From Lachnospiraceae bacterium (GTDB lineage Bacteria > Bacillota > Clostridia > Lachnospirales > Lachnospiraceae): DNA of 64,000 nt. The stretch's first letter is position 1, and every line of letters starts with the position of its first letter. The stretch lies in NCBI GenBank assembly GCA_016283755.1, contig JAEENO010000041.1, positions 1 through 64,000 on the forward strand, given 5' to 3'. The translations under genes were made by a program, and so were the position numbers. Of this stretch, positions 305 through 10,121 are shown one piece after another. The notes beneath the pieces are model-generated. The model saw only the letters and a program-made list of their open reading frames with translations. It was not told the DNA's origin and did no database searches.

Positions 305-588
305 GTATGCGTTGACACTCAACGCAACATTTATTCTATCATCTGCGCGTTACCATGTCAACTATAAAATCTTTCTAATTGTATGTTTTTTTAATACAAT
401 TCTATATATATCTTATTTCATTTTAGTTTCTAAGCTTAATCCTAAAAATTCACCTTACTAATACTCCCTTTTGCTTTTTTTACTTTTTTATGCTACATTA
501 TGCACACATAATTAATATCCTACATAAGTATTTCTACAGAAACTTCTTTAGGTTCTACTTCAAGAACAAGTATTTCCAACAGATGTAC

Positions 589-617
589 TTGACAGTTCAA
601 TATTTTATAGTTATAAT
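589..617 (+). promoter_or_regulatory. sigma-70-type promoter for putative type III antitoxin RNA/toxin
   Basis: TTGACA (589-594), 17 nt spacer, TATAAT (612-617): perfect consensus at ideal spacing. Confidence 0.85.
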
Positions 618-623
618 GCACAG

Positions 624-725
624 TATTCGGAGCGTCCTGCCGTTAAGTGGACTTCGAAACAGCGTATTGAAATCAATGGGTGGATATACGACCATAGGAC
701 TGTGCTAAAGCACAGTCCTTTTTTT
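624..725 (+). ncRNA. putative RNA antitoxin of a type III toxin-antitoxin system (ToxI/CptI-like), ending in an intrinsic terminator
   Basis: Short non-coding interval between a consensus promoter and a strong terminator, immediately upstream of a ToxN/AbiQ-like toxin; two weakly similar units (GTATTCGG...AAGTGGACTTCGAAACAG and GTATTGAA...GGGTGGATATACGACCATAG) can be drawn but repeats are poor. Confidence 0.6.
696..725 (+). terminator. intrinsic terminator between antitoxin RNA and toxin gene
   Basis: AGGACTGTGC-TAAA-GCACAGTCCT followed by TTTTTT; 10-bp perfect stem. Confidence 0.9.
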
Positions 726-741
726 GTACGGAGGTAAAAGA

Positions 742-1314
742 TTGAAAAATGAAAAAGAATTAAAGCTATATCGCGTTATTCCACGATATATCGATGCATT
801 ACAAGATATCGAAAACGGCGGTGATTCTCGTGTCTACAATGTAAGAGACGGAAAAGAACATAGGCCTTTTGTTGGAATAATAACCACATGCAATAATAAA
901 ATCTATTGTATTCCTTTATCCGGATATAAAACCAAATACAAAGTTTTACCCGATAATGATACATTTATGAAAATAATAATCGATGAAAAAATCGTTGGCG
1001 CATTGCAGTTTTCCAGAATGATACCTGTTGAAGAGAGGCTACTAAAAGAACTTGATCTTCAAATTCATAAACATGACACTAAAAAGCAACAAGTGGCCAA
1101 AGAATTAAGACGTAAAGAAACCGAATGGTGCAACGAGCACAAACAAGAAATAATCGATAAATGCAGAGCTCTCTATAATACATACATAACCGGAAATCCT
1201 TTCAAGGGGCGAAAGCACTGTCTTGATTTCATCAAAATGGAAATCTTATACGAGGATTATATAAAAAAGCACCCTAAATCAGAACAAATTTGCACTGCTC
1301 TCAAACCATTCTGA
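742..1314 (+). CDS. type III toxin-antitoxin system ToxN/AbiQ/CptN-family endoribonuclease toxin (TTG start at 742; ORF track start is 724)
   Basis: GGAGG RBS at 730-734 seven nt upstream of in-frame TTG; protein KLYRVIPRYIDALQDIENG..VYN..KEHRPFVGIITTCNNKIYCIPLSGYK..IVGALQFSRMIPV..CRALYNTY..CLDFIKMEILYEDY resembles the ToxN/AbiQ fold family; preceded by promoter-RNA-terminator arrangement typical of type III TA. Confidence 0.75.
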   Translation: MKNEKELKLYRVIPRYIDALQDIENGGDSRVYNVRDGKEHRPFVGIITTCNNKIYCIPLSGYKTKYKVLPDNDTFMKIIIDEKIVGALQFSRMIPVEERLLKELDLQIHKHDTKKQQVAKELRRKETEWCNEHKQEIIDKCRALYNTYITGNPFKGRKHCLDFIKMEILYEDYIKKHPKSEQICTALKPF

Positions 1315-1372
1315 TGAAACATTACACAACAGCATGGTTTAAGTCCCCTGTGAATTTGCACTGCTCTCAAAC
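1271..1372 (-). CRISPR. minimal type II-A CRISPR array: one complete 36-bp repeat (1337-1372), one 30-bp spacer (1307-1336), one terminal degenerate repeat (1271-1306)
   Basis: crRNA-sense repeat GTTTGAGAGCAGTGCAAATTCACAGGGGACTTAAAC; terminal repeat keeps the first 20 bp (GTTTGAGAGCAGTGCAAATT) and is diverged in its 3' 16 bp, as expected at the trailer end; spacer CATGCTGTTGTGTAATGTTTCATCAGAATG; repeat complementary to tracrRNA at 7497-7612. Confidence 0.9.
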
Positions 1373-1509
1373 CTCAAATTATGATATAAGCCTACACTTA
1401 TAAACAACCTGCAATTGCTATAACTTAAGGTTTTTCACAGCGGACTATCGCAACTTCATTATATAATAAGAATTAAACTCCTGTAAACATTTCCTTTTTT
1501 TAAGTTAGA
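1373..1509 (-). promoter_or_regulatory. CRISPR leader with ATTTGAG leader-anchoring motif adjoining the first repeat and a promoter (TTTACA-N18-TATAAT, 1487-1458)
   Basis: Reverse complement ...CATAATTTGAG directly abuts repeat; ATTTGAG is the described type II-A leader-anchoring sequence; -10 at 1463-1458 and -35 at 1487-1482. Confidence 0.8.
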
Positions 1510-2178
1510 TTAAGATATTTCACATAGATCGTCATCTACAATATAACGCTCTTCCATTTCCGACAACTCGTATTCTCTACCATCAATTAATAGAACATTG
1601 TAACCGTGCTTAACTATTTCCTTTAAAAACTGTGTAATCTCAATACAATCTATATAAGAATGAATATTTACAAGCACGAATAACTTATCAGTTTCATATC
1701 TTCTAACCAGTTCAAAATAATCAAGCAATTTCTCTGATAATAACTCATAATAATCTGCAAACTTTACACCTGAAGCTTTCAATAATGCATCCATTCCAAT
1801 TGGACCAATCTCAATATTTCCGGACATTTCAAAAGCAAGCCCATTACAATATCGTTCAATTTCACTTAATAATTCCGTGCTTCTTACATAATTAAAGTCA
1901 TTTACCGCAATCTTTGACATTTCAGCAATTGTTTTATTAATTAGTGTCTTTTTATTAATATCAAATGGAATAAATTGTGTTATTAGTTCTATCGATTTTG
2001 CTGTATCAAGCACCTTATCATCTTTCGACACTATGCAAGTTCCCTGATTTCCTTCTAGTTGCCATTCAATATCAGTAATAATTTTATAGAATAATTTGGG
2101 ATTCTCAATTACCAGAGATTTAACTTTATCCTCACAACATTCAAAGCATCTATTTATCCCTTCAAAAACTATTCTCAT
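1510..2178 (-). CDS. csn2: type II-A CRISPR-associated protein Csn2
   Basis: 222 aa, downstream of cas9-cas1-cas2 with 4-bp overlap to cas2; sequence pattern consistent with Csn2. Confidence 0.9.
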   Translation of the reverse strand: MRIVFEGINRCFECCEDKVKSLVIENPKLFYKIITDIEWQLEGNQGTCIVSKDDKVLDTAKSIELITQFIPFDINKKTLINKTIAEMSKIAVNDFNYVRSTELLSEIERYCNGLAFEMSGNIEIGPIGMDALLKASGVKFADYYELLSEKLLDYFELVRRYETDKLFVLVNIHSYIDCIEITQFLKEIVKHGYNVLLIDGREYELSEMEERYIVDDDLCEIS

Positions 2179-2498
2179 AAAACAATAAGCCTTTCTTCCG
2201 AATCAATAACATCACTTATGCTTTTTCCAACAACATAATCCATCTTTACAAACTGCTTTTCAGTCACGGACAGAATTTGTACAAGCCCTTCAGGTGGCTT
2301 ATTATCATATATTACCTTTCTTGCCGATGCTTCCATTGAAGGGCTTGTCATCATCTTGCAATATACCGATTCTTGTAACATAATGAATCCGTTCTTTATT
2401 AAAGCCTTACGGAATACTCTATAATTCTTTAATCCCTCAGCTGTTGTAACAGGTAGATCAAAAAATACCATCAATCTCATAAATCTGAAACCCGCCAT
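2175..2498 (-). CDS. cas2: CRISPR-associated endonuclease Cas2
   Basis: 107 aa, FMRLMVFFDLPVTTAEGLKNYRVFRKALIKNGFIMLQESVYCKM; in operon with cas1. Confidence 0.96.
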   Translation of the reverse strand: MAGFRFMRLMVFFDLPVTTAEGLKNYRVFRKALIKNGFIMLQESVYCKMMTSPSMEASARKVIYDNKPPEGLVQILSVTEKQFVKMDYVVGKSISDVIDSEERLIVL

Positions 2499-2499
2499 T

Positions 2500-3378
2500 T
2501 CATCCCTCTAAAGCATAGAACTTTATTTTTGAAGAATCATTGTCATTTATCGCATCCAAAACGCTTTTAGTATAAATGCGCATTGCGTTTGGCAAAGCTT
2601 GACTCTGCCCATCTATTATTACTCGCTTATCAAGTATCTTCCAAACATAATGCTTCTCATCCTTCTCAAATCTTATAGGCTGCATTTCATATACGAATCT
2701 ATCAACCAATACTCTAAACGGTTCCATAAAATCACATGCAAGGTTAAAATGATTAAACATATTATCATGAAAAATACCTAATTGCGTAAGATAACCATTT
2801 GCGGATATCTCACGATTGAAAGATGAAAGAATCAAACTATACCCATAATTTAAAGCTGCATTAATTGGTATTTCCGCACTTCGAGTAAAATCCAATCCGA
2901 AAAGTGCATTAAAATAAACTTTTGCCGCATGTCCTTCGCGGTTTGTCAAGTCCCCATAATCAACTTGATTAAGATATCCAAAGAGCATATCTGCTTGCTC
3001 ATTTTTACCTAATTCCGATAGAAAATCAGCCTGTTTTCTTATCTTTTCGCTTACTATATCACGCCAGATAGCTGCTTTTACTGTTGAATTCCATGCAAAT
3101 TGGGTTCGTATTTTAGACGAACTATCATGACTTCCATGATGAGGTATTAACTCCGATATCGGATTTCTCTTTGAATCACAGAAAATCACTTTAATTTTCT
3201 TTTCTGATGCAGCCTCAATCAAGAATCCGGTTAATGAAACTGCCGGATTCTCAATTAAAATAACTGCTATCTCATCCATCAAAACTCTCTTTGTTTCATT
3301 ATCATTTCTTACCACAAGATATCCCATCTTATAATCAAGTTTTGATTGAGTGCTTATAATTACTGTTCTCCAACTCAT
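2500..3378 (-). CDS. cas1: type II CRISPR-associated endonuclease Cas1
   Basis: 292 aa; NREGHAAKVYFNALFG, GIFHDNMFNHFNLACDFMEPFR motifs with catalytic Glu/His present. Confidence 0.96.
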   Translation of the reverse strand: MSWRTVIISTQSKLDYKMGYLVVRNDNETKRVLMDEIAVILIENPAVSLTGFLIEAASEKKIKVIFCDSKRNPISELIPHHGSHDSSSKIRTQFAWNSTVKAAIWRDIVSEKIRKQADFLSELGKNEQADMLFGYLNQVDYGDLTNREGHAAKVYFNALFGLDFTRSAEIPINAALNYGYSLILSSFNREISANGYLTQLGIFHDNMFNHFNLACDFMEPFRVLVDRFVYEMQPIRFEKDEKHYVWKILDKRVIIDGQSQALPNAMRIYTKSVLDAINDNDSSKIKFYALEG

Positions 3379-6300
3379 AATAATTCAAACAAATTAATGG
3401 ACTGCTTTTCCCATAATCCTGATGGCGATTGGTCAATAATCCTTACATCCGTATAATACTTTTTCCAATTTGATATAGCCGTGCTAATAGTCATAGCAGC
3501 AGCATTCTTATTACCTCCAATTAAACTAAGGTCACTTCCTCCTGATACTCTTCCTAGTATTTGAATAATTGTTAATAATACATTTGCCTGTTCAACTTCA
3601 GTAAGTTTCATAAACATTTCACGGCCACTCGTCATAACTTCATATGGAGAGTTCGGTCTCTTAGAATAAACGCCTTCTTGAAACTTCTTTTCAAGAATAT
3701 CATATAACTTTACGTTATCTGTTGCTATCACCTTATCGTACTCTGAGTCGAAAACGTAATTTTTATTATTCTGCACTTTTGTAACAAGATTATCCATGCG
3801 TTTAATATAACACTTCCAATAATCATCAAGTGATAATTGAACAATTCCTTGCAACAATAGTTTCATTCCTTTATTAGCAACTCCTGTTATAACAGCTCTA
3901 TACCCATCAAATGATATAACAGTATTTACTTTTAAGGCCCGCATTCCCATTGGAAATACTACTTCATCTACTGTTTTTCCAAGAATGTATTGCAAACGCT
4001 TAATCGCGTACTCTTTTGCGTAGACACTATCAGATAAAAACCTATCTTTATTCATTAGTTCAACTGAAAGTATTATTATTTCTTCCTTTTTACCAACTCT
4101 GTATTTTGTCGGTATATAAAATGCTACCGCAGGCTTATTATATCCACCATATCTTTCAGTATCAGACAGCAATGTAACACCTGCTTTTCTTGGCACTAAA
4201 TCTGTACTTTTTTTCACGAGCATTTGTTTAAAAAATTCTCCTGTCTTCATGGCTGAAAACATGGTAAAATGTGCATTATTTTTCTTTGCAATGGCTATTG
4301 CCTTATCTCGCATTTTTTCGCCATCCCAAATTACTCTATCCCCAACCTTAACCGGATACTTAAATATATTCTCAGTTTTCATACTATATTGCATATCAAC
4401 ATTGAAATACTTTTTAGAAAACTTCATGTTGTAGACATTTCCAGTCACAATATTTAAATATGCATCTACCGCATGATGAAGATCATTAAAGCTTCTCGAT
4501 TTATAAATATCATATACCTGTCTAAATGAACTAACCAATCCGGCTTTTGAATATACTATTTCTGCTTTAGGGTATTTTTCGCCAAGAAGTATACCCAATG
4601 CTTTTGTAGACTGAGATGTTTCTACTAATTGTCTGTTAATAAACCCATACTTTTCTTCATCACTAAATGGTGTCGAACGCGTTAATCTTTTGTATTTTTC
4701 CTCGGTAATAGTTCCGGACTTATACCACCAAGCCCAAATATCCTTCATTTTATTTCTAATTTCAGCACTGATTGGATATACGTCCTGTTTTTTACCGTTC
4801 AACTCTGACAAACATAAAACCTTGTTATTATGAATGCTGTCATCTTTTACATATGACTGCGGATAAATATGATCAATGTCATATCTTTTTGAACCTTGCA
4901 TTAATTCTTCCAACTGAATTGGCTCGTTTGAATATGCGCATCTACCAAACTGCATAAAATATAGGAACAATCTATCCCCTTGTAATCTATTTGTTGCATA
5001 TTCTCCCAATGATTCTAATTGCTTTTTTAACTCACGAACTTCTTCGTTTTTACACGATGAATAAAGCTCTTGTATCTGCTCGAGCCTTGAATTAGTTTTT
5101 TTACCTTTTTTACTTGCATCCTCACCTCTAGTCATCTCGATAAAAATCTTCTCGGGTGTTCCAAAAGCCTTGCAAATATCATTAACAATATCCATTGTCC
5201 TGTATATCGGGCGTCTGACGGCAGTAGAAACATACATATCATCAAGTCTGCTCTCCAAACTCGACTTATGTTCTGTATAATACTCCTTTTGATACTCTTC
5301 AATAATCTCTTTAAATCTATATCTATCAGTTGCAATAATTTCCATCAGATTATCATTCGTGTTCCACAAAGCAGACAAAATAGTTGTTATTTCACCCGTA
5401 TTATACGCGCCTTCAAGTTCCGACAAGAACTTTCGGGAAAGTCTACCGAAATCTTTAAATCTCAAACTACATAAATACTTTCTATCCTCAACAGATATAT
5501 TGGGAAACTCTTTTTCAATCCATTTGGATAATCTGCTCTTGTTTTCCGCATAAGCAGAACGCTCAATTATTCTTTCTGCATCATCTTCAGAAAGCTTCCC
5601 ACTACTTAACATTTTATCTAAGGCTCTTCTTGAACTCAGCGAAGACTTAATTGATACATCAATACCGGTAACAGCTTCATCATTACCTTTATCAAGATAG
5701 CCATTACTAATCAAATAATCTATTATTGCATGCTTTGTCACTCTGTTCTTCTTTTCAAAAAGATCTGTATATAAGCCCTGTTTAACCTCAACCGGAATCT
5801 TTTCGCCATTTATCTTGATATTATTGATTTCATTTAAAACCATAAATTTTTGATAGCATAAAGAGTCCTTCGGTAATACATCTTCACCTGGAAGGTATGT
5901 ACATTTATTAGTCATTCTTCGTATGAAGTTTTCCTCGCTTTTATCAAGGTCAACCATTTTTTCAAAATTCCATGGCATAATCTTTCCCGTCTTTCTCACT
6001 AGCCAAGCCTTATCCGACCTATCATTTAACGGGCCAACAAAATACGGTATTTTGAACTTAAATATACTTACAATTTTTTCTGCGTTAGTTATTCCGTCCA
6101 TATCACTTTCACCTAAAAAAGCAAGATAATTCTCTGCATTTTCAAGAATTCTCTTTAACTCAAATAAGTATACCTGATGAGGTATAACTCTATTATCAGT
6201 ATTCTTTTGCTTTGGTAAAAATGTATTAAGAGCTAATCGCTCCATCATATCATCAAATTCTTTCTTATCCTTCTCTTTTACTTCAACTTGCTTCAAAATA

Positions 6301-7460
6301 CTAATAAGCGCCTTTGAAAAACTTTCTGCACTCGCTCTATTTTTAAGTTCTGCAGCTTTTCCCTTTTCAACATGATAAGTATAAGCAGGATAATTAAATA
6401 AATCCTTCTTTGCATATCTGAATATTTCCGCATATTTACCCGGAATATAATCTCTTACTATTCTCTTTAACAATTCCAAATCTGCTTTATGTTGCTCATA
6501 AATATGGACTTTTGCTCCAGAAATTGTCACTGCGCCATTCAAAATATTATTAAGAATTGCCCAATCATATAAAGAGCGCAAATGTGCTATAAGCTCATAA
6601 TCATCACCAATATTCGATGCTAGTTCAAGATGCTTTTCTTCATCCATTCCCAATGAAACAGAATCAAATTCCTCATATTCTTCTTTTCCAAATAGCTCCT
6701 TTACTTTACAAGTTCCACCTGCAAGCAATCTTATTATGCATACTAAACTAAAAGGAAATTCTTCTGTTATATCTTTTTTAGGCTTTTTACCTCCAAACAT
6801 AGTTTCAATCAATTGTTGTTCCTTGACCTTAACATATGTCTTATCTTTCAACACATTCCCTAATCTAGATAAATCAGGTGCCTCCCACGGAACAGCACAT
6901 CCATTATTACTAAAATACATTATTAAAGCATTATATGACTCTGTTATATCTGAAATTTTCGATATATTATTTTCATCCAAATTATCAAGAAAATGTCCTC
7001 TATGTGCAACTAACCATGCGCATGCCAAATAAACCAATCTAGCATCATGTGGAGCTGGATTATTCATTAACTCAACTATAAGATGATGTATTGTCGGATA
7101 CTCTTTATGATACTGTTTATCAGTATAATTCTTATCATTAAACAGAGTATACTCGTCTTCAGCATCTTCTCTATATTTATAACTTTCGGCCAATCTAACG
7201 AAAAATCGCTCATCCACCTTTGCAATTTCCTTTGCAAAGATTTCCTGAAGTAAACCAACTCGTTGCTTTCTTCGCTCTAATCTTCTCCTTGCAGTTCTAA
7301 AGCTACGCCTTTCTGCATTCGTTTTTCCCGCATCAAATATATGCGCCCCCCATGCAGGCTCTCCATGAAATTTCAACAGATTGTATTGCTCATCAGTAAC
7401 GGCATATCCAACCGAATCTGTACCAACATCCAATCCGAGATAATATTTTACCTTTTTCAT
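3375..7460 (-). CDS. cas9: type II-A CRISPR RNA-guided endonuclease Cas9
   Basis: 1361 aa; RuvC-I YLGLDVGTDSVGYAV, Arg-rich bridge helix RTARRRLERRKQR, RuvC-II EKIFIEMTRGED, HNH YDIDHIYPQSYVKDDSIHNNKVL, RuvC-III HHAVDAYLNIVTG; all catalytic motifs intact. Confidence 0.98.
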   Translation of the reverse strand: MKKVKYYLGLDVGTDSVGYAVTDEQYNLLKFHGEPAWGAHIFDAGKTNAERRSFRTARRRLERRKQRVGLLQEIFAKEIAKVDERFFVRLAESYKYREDAEDEYTLFNDKNYTDKQYHKEYPTIHHLIVELMNNPAPHDARLVYLACAWLVAHRGHFLDNLDENNISKISDITESYNALIMYFSNNGCAVPWEAPDLSRLGNVLKDKTYVKVKEQQLIETMFGGKKPKKDITEEFPFSLVCIIRLLAGGTCKVKELFGKEEYEEFDSVSLGMDEEKHLELASNIGDDYELIAHLRSLYDWAILNNILNGAVTISGAKVHIYEQHKADLELLKRIVRDYIPGKYAEIFRYAKKDLFNYPAYTYHVEKGKAAELKNRASAESFSKALISILKQVEVKEKDKKEFDDMMERLALNTFLPKQKNTDNRVIPHQVYLFELKRILENAENYLAFLGESDMDGITNAEKIVSIFKFKIPYFVGPLNDRSDKAWLVRKTGKIMPWNFEKMVDLDKSEENFIRRMTNKCTYLPGEDVLPKDSLCYQKFMVLNEINNIKINGEKIPVEVKQGLYTDLFEKKNRVTKHAIIDYLISNGYLDKGNDEAVTGIDVSIKSSLSSRRALDKMLSSGKLSEDDAERIIERSAYAENKSRLSKWIEKEFPNISVEDRKYLCSLRFKDFGRLSRKFLSELEGAYNTGEITTILSALWNTNDNLMEIIATDRYRFKEIIEEYQKEYYTEHKSSLESRLDDMYVSTAVRRPIYRTMDIVNDICKAFGTPEKIFIEMTRGEDASKKGKKTNSRLEQIQELYSSCKNEEVRELKKQLESLGEYATNRLQGDRLFLYFMQFGRCAYSNEPIQLEELMQGSKRYDIDHIYPQSYVKDDSIHNNKVLCLSELNGKKQDVYPISAEIRNKMKDIWAWWYKSGTITEEKYKRLTRSTPFSDEEKYGFINRQLVETSQSTKALGILLGEKYPKAEIVYSKAGLVSSFRQVYDIYKSRSFNDLHHAVDAYLNIVTGNVYNMKFSKKYFNVDMQYSMKTENIFKYPVKVGDRVIWDGEKMRDKAIAIAKKNNAHFTMFSAMKTGEFFKQMLVKKSTDLVPRKAGVTLLSDTERYGGYNKPAVAFYIPTKYRVGKKEEIIILSVELMNKDRFLSDSVYAKEYAIKRLQYILGKTVDEVVFPMGMRALKVNTVISFDGYRAVITGVANKGMKLLLQGIVQLSLDDYWKCYIKRMDNLVTKVQNNKNYVFDSEYDKVIATDNVKLYDILEKKFQEGVYSKRPNSPYEVMTSGREMFMKLTEVEQANVLLTIIQILGRVSGGSDLSLIGGNKNAAAMTISTAISNWKKYYTDVRIIDQSPSGLWEKQSINLFELL

Positions 7461-7461
7461 A

Positions 7462-7490
7462 TTGACACCCTCACTTTGTTATATTATTAT
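7462..7490 (+). promoter_or_regulatory. putative tracrRNA promoter
   Basis: TTGACA (7462-7467)-N17-TATTAT (7485-7490), starting 2 nt upstream of the cas9 start codon on the opposite strand. Confidence 0.75.
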
Positions 7491-7496
7491 ATTAGT

Positions 7497-7612
7497 AAGT
7501 TCACAGTCCCCTGTGAATTTGTACTGCGAGTTCAAATAAAAGTAAACTCAATCCGCCGACTTGTTCGGCTGCACAGTGTGTGCTTTAAGACTTCTTTAGA
7601 AGTCTTTTTTTT
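7497..7612 (+). ncRNA. tracrRNA
   Basis: Anti-repeat AGTCCCCTGTGAATTTGTACTGC-GAGT-TCAAA complementary to the CRISPR repeat with the usual crRNA GA / tracr 4-nt bulge; followed by hairpins CCGActtgtTCGG, GCACAgtgTGTGC and a terminator. Confidence 0.92.
7587..7612 (+). terminator. tracrRNA intrinsic terminator
   Basis: AAGACTTCtttaGAAGTCTT followed by T-run. Confidence 0.9.
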
Positions 7613-7772
7613 GTCCAAAAACTATATCATATATATAGTCCATTAGATAGGACAACCAAAATGATAAAATAAAATTTTATGCGCCATTCTTATAATCAAT
7701 ATTATCAGATACAGCAAAATCTTCAATACATAATGGTTGATTTCAGAAAATTTGAAAACGATAAAATCTTCT

Positions 7773-7797
7773 TTGAAGTCGCAATTTGCGACTTCAA
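7773..7797. repeat. perfect 12-bp-arm palindrome (TTGAAGTCGCAA T TTGCGACTTCAA)
   Basis: Inverted repeat in intergenic DNA between tracrRNA and the core genome; no T-run next to it. Confidence 0.8.
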
Positions 7798-7833
7798 ACC
7801 AATATGCATAAATGTCTATATATAAATAAAAAA

Positions 7834-7855
7834 GTCGGCTGAATATCAGCCGACT
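7834..7855 (-). terminator. intrinsic terminator downstream of the 7875-8378 gene
   Basis: AGTCGGCTGATATTCAGCCGACTTTTTT on minus strand. Confidence 0.85.
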
Positions 7856-7874
7856 CACACTATAGTCTTATTCT

Positions 7875-8378
7875 CTATGCCCACGGATCTTGTGATGCAG
7901 GCACTCTTATATCGCTTAAGCACTGGATGTCATTGATAAACCACCGGCCTGTTGAAGGCTTCTTACGAAGCTTTACAGGGCGCGGTGAATCTGCTCCACC
8001 CGATGTAAGATAAAGTGTTGCCCAGTTCTCTTCAGGATATGAATAAGGATTATCACTTACTTCAAGCACATACGGCTTATTCGGTGTATATCCGTTTTCA
8101 GGTGTTGCGCCCTTAAAGAACGAAAGCACCTTATATTCCTTATCCTTCAAGCGATCCTTCATAAACTGCTTAAGAAACTCGTTAACATTTTCAGGTCCGT
8201 TAAGGAATTCAAGCATCTCCCACATAGCGGCTTCATTATCCTTATAATTGGTTAATGCCGCAATGCAAAGTGCTACCGTCTTAAACGGTGTATCAAGACT
8301 TGCCTCAGGGCGAGCTGTAAGCTCTGCCAAAGTCTTAGGAAACTCATTAAAAGTAAATGTCTCTACATTATTAGCCAT
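7875..8378 (-). CDS. hypothetical protein, conserved-looking DUF (possibly DUF6935-like)
   Basis: 167 aa complete ORF with downstream terminator; family recalled, not searched. Confidence 0.7.
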   Translation of the reverse strand: MANNVETFTFNEFPKTLAELTARPEASLDTPFKTVALCIAALTNYKDNEAAMWEMLEFLNGPENVNEFLKQFMKDRLKDKEYKVLSFFKGATPENGYTPNKPYVLEVSDNPYSYPEENWATLYLTSGGADSPRPVKLRKKPSTGRWFINDIQCLSDIRVPASQDPWA

Positions 8379-8400
8379 GTCATAAACCTCCGATTAATAA

Positions 8401-9090
8401 CTAATTCATAAGAAGTGCCTTGGCAACTTCTATATCCTCAGGTGTTGTAACCTTGATATTCTTATAATCACCTTCAATTACCTTAGCTTTTACGCCAAGA
8501 TAATTATATACGAATGTCACATCATCCGTTGCAGGTCCTTTTGTCGCGCTTTTCTCAGCAAGATTATATGCTTCCTTAATAAGCACGGTGTCAAATGCCT
8601 GCGGTGTCTGTGCAATATACAATCTGTCGCGTCTAAGTGATGCACTTACCATTCCGTCTTCCGTTGAATAGATGGTCTCCTTTGCAGGAACCGCAACAAG
8701 AATTGCACGCTCGGTTTTTACAGCATCAATAACCCTGTTGATAAGCGTATCAGTTATAAGCGGTCTTGCGCCGTCATGAATAAGAACATGTCCCGCATCA
8801 AGCGCAAGTAAAAGTCCGTGCTCAACAGACTTCGTTCTTGTAATTCCTCCGGGAGTAACCGCCTTAACCTTGTTAAAGCCGTACTTAACAACTATCTCAC
8901 TTTTAACATAATCAATATCTTCTTCCGGTACAACAAGCACTATATCATCAACTTCGCTTTCTTCAAAAGCTCTGACCGAATAGTACAGAAGCGGCTTATC
9001 GTTAATCTCCATAAACTGCTTCTTCGTATCGGAATTCATTCTCTTGCCCGACCCTGCTGCCACAATTATCGCTGTAACTTTACATGCCAT
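8401..9090 (-). CDS. ispD: 2-C-methyl-D-erythritol 4-phosphate cytidylyltransferase
   Basis: AIIVAAGSGKRMNSDTKKQFMEINDKPLLYYSVRAFE; VLIHDGARPLI. Confidence 0.95.
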   Translation of the reverse strand: MACKVTAIIVAAGSGKRMNSDTKKQFMEINDKPLLYYSVRAFEESEVDDIVLVVPEEDIDYVKSEIVVKYGFNKVKAVTPGGITRTKSVEHGLLLALDAGHVLIHDGARPLITDTLINRVIDAVKTERAILVAVPAKETIYSTEDGMVSASLRRDRLYIAQTPQAFDTVLIKEAYNLAEKSATKGPATDDVTFVYNYLGVKAKVIEGDYKNIKVTTPEDIEVAKALLMN

Positions 9091-9098
9091 ACAATCAC

Positions 9099-10121
9099 CT
9101 ATCTCTCACCAAGTTTAAGATTCGGAACCGCATTTAAAGACCAGTCCGCGAAATTACCTGCCTTATATTCATAATAAGCTGCAGCACCTATCATTGCTGC
9201 ATTATCCGTACACAGAATCGGCGACGGATGATAGAAAGTAAATCTGTTCTCCTCGCAAGCCCTACGGAAAGCTTCACGCAAGGTTCCGTTACTTGCAACA
9301 CCACCTGCGATCGCAAACTTTTTCACGTGCTCTGTCTTTGCAGCTCTCATTCCGTGCTCAACAAGTACGTCGGATACTGCCTGCTGGAAAGATGCCGCAA
9401 TATCAGCTTCACTATATTCTTCATCCTTCATCTTGCAGCCGTTGATATAATTAAGTACAGCAGACTTAAGTCCGCTGAACGAGAAATCATAAGGTCCGTC
9501 GGCAACAACCGCACGTGGGAATTTAATCGCTGTAGGATCTCCCTCATGGGCTTTTTTCTCAATCTTCGGGCCACCCGGGTATCCTAAGCCAATCGCACGG
9601 GCAACCTTATCAAAAGCTTCTCCCGCCGCATCATCTCTTGTCTTACCTAATATCTCATACTTGCCGTAATCCGCAACATTTACAAGATGTGTATGTCCGC
9701 CCGATATTACAAGACACATGAAAGGCGGTTCTAATTCCTTATTCTCTATGTAATTGGCGCTTATATGCCCTTCAATATGATGTACAGCAATTAACGGCTT
9801 CTTAGCGGCATATGCAATCGCCTTGGCTGCGGATACGCCTACAAGAAGCGCACCTACAAGTCCCGGGCCATAAGTTACGGCAATAGCATCCATATCGGAA
9901 AGCGCCATTCCCGCCTTATCAAGTGCTTCATCGATTACCTGATTAATGCGCTCTATATGCTTTCTTGATGCAATCTCCGGAACAACTCCGCCGTATAATG
10001 TATGCAAATCTATCTGCGATGAAATGACATTGCTTAATACCTCGCGACCGTTCTTTACGACTGCCGCGGCAGTCTCGTCGCACGAGGATTCTATCGCAAG
10101 AATAACTACATCTTTATCCAT
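9099..10121 (-). CDS. tsaD: tRNA N6-adenosine threonylcarbamoyltransferase TsaD
   Basis: [46 protein letters not shown] motifs. Confidence 0.97.

Follow-up and report, generated by a model that had tools for sequence, protein, structure and literature searches.

A predicted toxin gene of a Lachnospiraceae bacterium ends inside a CRISPR array, so that the same few nucleotides serve as the end of a protein and as part of an immune memory. The arrangement raises the question of whether the residues supplied by the array mean anything to the toxin, or the toxin anything to the array. The gene lies near the start of the window, the stretch of 64,000 nucleotides that was analysed (contig JAEENO010000041.1), and Table 1 lists the features on which the answer depends.

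Table 1. Features of the toxIN and CRISPR-Cas loci, with positions in the window.
Feature	Position	Strand	Basis
toxIN promoter, TTGACA-17-TATAAT	589-617	+	12/12 consensus match; position relative to antitoxin same in relatives
ToxI-like RNA antitoxin region, one unit CGGAGCGTCCTGCCGTTAAGTGGACTTCGAAACAGC then hairpin	618-695	+	motif common to closest relatives
Intrinsic terminator at antitoxin/toxin boundary	696-726	+	10-bp stem and T run
toxN, ToxN/AbiQ-family toxin, 190 aa	742-1314	+	PF13958, PDB 4ato, alignment of 47 homologues
Degenerate terminal CRISPR repeat	1271-1306	-	first 20 nt intact (1287-1306); last 16 nt 2/16 identical
Sole spacer, 30 bp, CATGCTGTTGTGTAATGTTTCATCAGAATG	1307-1336	-	between full and terminal repeat
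Full 36-bp repeat	1337-1372	-	identical to five repeats of sister genome G004
Leader, ends ATTTGAG at first repeat	1373-1509	-	ATTTGAG also before first repeat of Blautia array L065
Promoter-like TTTACA-18-TATAAT in leader	1487-1458	-	
csn2	1510-2178	-	TIGR01866, 7.7e-42
cas2	2175-2498	-	TIGR01573, 8.5e-17
cas1 (type II)	2500-3378	-	TIGR03639, 1e-91
cas9	3375-7460	-	TIGR01865, 1.6e-261
tracrRNA: anti-repeat ~7505-7538, terminator hairpin near 7590-7613	7504-7613	+	duplex with repeat

A toxIN locus and a type II-A CRISPR-Cas system

The most likely start of toxN is the TTG at 742, with GGAGG at 730-734, and the stop codon ends at 1314. In a profile search the product matches PF13958 (ToxN) at E=1.4e-30, with model positions 1-159 of 159 falling on residues 7-173, and the PDB ToxN chain 4ato matches it at E=1.1e-9. 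By family membership, the toxin is a predicted ToxN/AbiQ-family endoribonuclease. Compared with the family alignment, it keeps the column lysines K38, K63, and K65 as well as the invariant M93 and P95. When conserved columns are defined as those holding the same residue in at least 75% of 47 ToxN relatives, the toxin deviates at 7 of 38, within a range of 0-19 across the set. Cys141 is a departure from a near-invariant position (Ala in 46 of the 47 relatives), and Ser91 also departs from the family, 96% of the relatives having Asn there. ToxN relatives were not found in the viral contigs and phage records searched, and plasmid ToxN matches are all distant (<60% identity).

Type III toxin-antitoxin systems are defined by an upstream RNA antitoxin and a Rho-independent terminator behind one promoter (PMC5086642), and this layout is present at toxIN. 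The motif GAGTCCTGCC-AAGTGGAC-(A)AAGCG also occurs upstream of the closest toxin relatives, and the antitoxin region (618-695) has no Rfam match. A single antitoxin unit is recognised in toxIN and in its closest relatives, and other relatives have two or three units in tandem, each about 34-41 nt long; the one-unit form is common to many Lachnospiraceae relatives. Together, the intact ToxN match, the promoter, the antitoxin-like RNA, and the terminator make toxIN a plausible working locus.

Facing toxN is what its gene content identifies as a predicted complete type II-A CRISPR-Cas system, with tracrRNA, cas9-cas1-cas2-csn2, leader, and array. The cas gene order, the tracrRNA anti-repeat, and a 36-bp repeat with a 30-bp spacer are all features of this type. 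The repeat unit is GTTTGAGAGCAGTGCAAATTCACAGGGGACTTAAAC on the minus strand, and its duplex with the tracrRNA (-48.2 kcal/mol) is the best within 7440-9200 when both strands are considered. A single full repeat and a single spacer stand beside intact cas genes; the array of a sister species contains five repeats or more. The short array is either a collapsed one or the product of recent spacer loss. An exact search of viral contigs with a 24-nt stretch of the spacer gave no match, and the 20-nt repeat core does not occur in the viral contigs searched.

The end of toxN within the array

toxN runs about 40 bases into the leader-distal end of the array, and its stop lies 8 bp into the spacer. The codons ATT TGC ACT GCT CTC AAA CCA TTC TGA at 1288-1314, in frame with toxN, read ICTALKPF and stop. 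An earlier note on this DNA had placed the C-terminus and stop codon of the toxin in CRISPR DNA, and this is borne out: residues 183-190 (ICTALKPF) derive from the array, six of them (183-188, ICTALK) encoded by the part of the terminal repeat that is still intact, and the codons for PF and the stop span the repeat-spacer junction and enter the spacer. The note had also spoken of a 20-bp repeat core. The true repeat is 36 bp long, and this core is only the 5′ half, still intact, of a terminal repeat that has otherwise degenerated; the stretch 1287-1307 recurs exactly at 1353-1373 (21 bp), and shuffled windows indicate that no such recurrence is expected by chance. A full-length repeat would place a TGA immediately 5′ of ATT TGC in the toxN frame; without the degeneracy of the terminal repeat, toxN could not read into the repeat core. 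Since the core itself holds no stop in that frame, the ORF continues to the first one, in the spacer.

Degeneracy of this kind is usual in type II-A arrays. The script reached a last recognisable repeat in 18 other arrays of the family; the first 20 nt of that repeat are 18-20/20 identical in all 18, and its last 16 nt are just 4-10/16 identical in 8 of them, although a few of the remaining arrays may stop at a chain break and not at a true end. A Blautia array (L065) and one from another Lachnospiraceae genome (L064) show the same pattern. During type II crRNA maturation, the 5′ half of the downstream repeat supplies the repeat part of the mature crRNA, which leaves this half alone able to serve the last spacer. 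Such maturation is the likely explanation of why terminal repeats retain it. In Streptococcus agalactiae and Enterococcus faecalis, type II-A terminal repeats likewise degenerate after about 19-22 bp (PMC4466440, PMC5491264), those of E. faecalis retaining 19 and 22 bp (PMC5491264).

The overlap with a gene is another matter. No credible gene ends within any of the 18 comparable arrays, so the overlap appears to be uncommon. Two candidates for a gene entering an array were set aside, one an AT-rich stretch where coding is not credible (L111) and the other an ORF composed of the repeats themselves (L132). Conversely, none of the toxin relatives in about 60 loci scanned, with stored flanks of about 1.5 kb, adjoins a CRISPR array. 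Periodic repeats beside four of them (L013, L022, L101, and L104) were not taken for CRISPR, since antitoxin repeats are expected at their location, just upstream of the toxin ORFs or where these begin. A search of open-licence papers yielded no description of a CRISPR array that overlaps the end of a gene.

The CRISPR-derived residues lie beyond the part of the protein that the family conserves. The earlier note had judged the ToxN core complete ahead of the tail, and both the Pfam match, which ends at residue 173, and the alignment of 47 ToxN homologues agree. In this alignment the last well-conserved column is E167 and the last with a common residue is Y173. Columns past residue 177 are unconserved and filled in about half or fewer of the homologues, with occupancy dropping to roughly half by residue 178 and to 19% over residues 185-187. 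After Y173 the relatives have between 0 and 89 further residues, unconserved, with a median of 5. The 17 residues found here, although more than most relatives have (at least 17 in 5 of 47), are therefore within the range of the family.

The content of the spacer can be considered in the same light. If the spacer unit were lost, the ORF would end ...ICTALKPQIMI and stop, exactly as the earlier note had calculated. Its further suggestion, that spacer content alters the protein end, is not supported in the sense of a meaningful change to the toxin. The loss would affect just the last few residues, in a segment unconserved in the 47 relatives, and it is the terminal spacer that is concerned. In type II-A systems acquisition adds spacers on the leader side of the array, which here faces away from toxN, and thus leaves the gene untouched. 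As a biological event the loss of the spacer unit would be small, and it is also unlikely, given acquisition at the leader, the terminal spacer being the one least often lost, and the precedent of deletion in E. faecalis. There, the terminal spacer was lost only after a full repeat had taken the place of the degenerate terminal one (PMC5491264), and the terminal spacer was also inactive in interference. By analogy, the terminal spacer of the present array may be inactive as well.

The insertion site in sister genomes

Two tRNA-Ser genes occupy positions 2-304 of the window, which begins at a contig end, and in six of six sister genomes tRNA-Ser lies close to ispD. In the two closest sisters (G001 and G003), homology runs to position 401 of the window and resumes at 8409. 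The intervening 402-8408 (~8 kb), absent from both, comprises toxIN, the type II-A CRISPR-Cas system, and a DUF6935 gene (7875-8378). Because all six sisters have tRNA-Ser and ispD close together, the joined locus is either an insertion between them in this species or a loss from all the others. The insertion site adjoins tRNA genes.

The two modules travel separately, since another sister, G004, carries CRISPR-Cas without ToxN. Its module is on another contig and is 80% identical over window positions 1336-7696; its array has five full repeats of the same 36-mer with different spacers, and no ToxN match was found in its genome. Among the genomes compared, only this one shows the junction of toxN and array.

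What the overlap may mean

Very probably, the locus combines an ordinary toxIN with a complete type II-A CRISPR-Cas system, brought together convergently, and the tail of the toxin is a passive by-product with probably little or no effect on it. The overlap itself, the families of the genes, the decay of the terminal repeat, the variability of the tail, and the site of insertion are observed; the order of events and the neutrality of the tail are what we infer. Two anti-phage modules, one type III and the other type II-A, would have been joined head-on in one species, leaving the 3′ end of toxN against the leader-distal end of the array. Past the conserved domain (about residue 173), the ORF crosses the degenerate half and the intact 20-nt half of the terminal repeat, and ends at the first stop it meets, 8 bp into the terminal spacer. 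As the ORF runs through the terminal repeat into the spacer, its last eight residues would be a by-product of DNA kept for, or left from, CRISPR RNA function, and the toxin probably gains little or nothing from them.

A regulatory role for the overlap has been weighed against this. The 3′ end of the toxN mRNA is perfectly complementary to the pre-crRNA and to the terminal crRNA, and array transcription might damp the toxin, for example via RNase III, with the toxin released when CRISPR activity is lost. The promoters at 589-617 (+) and 1487-1458 (-) converge, and neither strand shows a terminator-like site from 791 to 1700. A 20-nt anti-repeat is part of the toxN mRNA, every pre-crRNA includes a handle complementary to that mRNA, and the pairing is perfect across the overlap because the genes overlap convergently. 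However, any convergent overlap gives rise to such complementarity, the arrangement of toxN and array is not conserved (no relative was found beside an array in the ~60 loci), and the toxin comes with its own RNA antitoxin, all of which makes this reading very unlikely. That transcription of the array would restrain toxN by antisense pairing in cis at its 3′ end, a silenced CRISPR locus yielding more toxin, is likewise very unlikely. A toxin adjoining CRISPR-Cas also recalls CreTA loci, in which CreA pairs with a site at the toxin promoter (PMC10097628). There is next to no chance that the terminal spacer directs Cas9 to repress the toxin promoter in this manner, as its best match in 401-1270 is 17/30 with a seed of at most 7 nt, which shuffled spacers equal, and the toxin is paired with a ToxI-like RNA antitoxin.

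Two further readings concern the tail itself. The CRISPR-encoded residues do belong to the ORF and could have been recruited for folding, stability, or antitoxin binding, but tails vary freely in length and sequence among relatives and Pfam ToxN stops at residue 173, so such a role is highly improbable. The array could also have been collapsed or made chimeric in a metagenome-type assembly, in which case the true spacer, and with it PF and the stop, would differ. One spacer makes for an unusually short array, and the G004 assembly breaks within its own array; yet less than 100 bp separate the toxN core from the spacer, and the two repeats share just 21 bp, which would rarely mislead an assembler. 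An artefact of this kind is very unlikely.

Read as a passive juxtaposition, the locus offers a small, clear example of tightly packed defence modules in which the last codons of a gene double as part of a CRISPR memory array. It also cautions against assigning meaning to the tail of an ORF when its sequence comes by chance from an adjacent non-coding element. The antisense link, if true, would tie an abortive-infection toxin to adaptive immunity.

toxIN resembles ToxN/AbiQ type III toxin-antitoxin loci in its toxin family and in the order of promoter, RNA antitoxin, terminator, and toxin, and differs from them in having one recognised antitoxin unit, a trait of its closest relatives too, and in drawing the last eight codons of toxN from CRISPR DNA. 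With CreTA it shares a toxin beside CRISPR-Cas, but it has no repeat-like guide against the toxin promoter (no CRISPR-type RNA partly complementary to that region above chance, comparing the spacer with 401-1270), and its toxin is a ToxN with its own RNA antitoxin. The closest counterparts of the array are the type II-A loci S. agalactiae CRISPR1 and E. faecalis CRISPR1 and CRISPR2, which have the same order of tracrRNA-cas9-cas1-cas2-csn2-leader-array and a terminal repeat intact over about 20 bp; minimal arrays of repeat, spacer, and terminal repeat exist in E. faecalis CRISPR2 too. In contrast to these, the terminal repeat and spacer of the present array overlap a convergent protein-coding gene.
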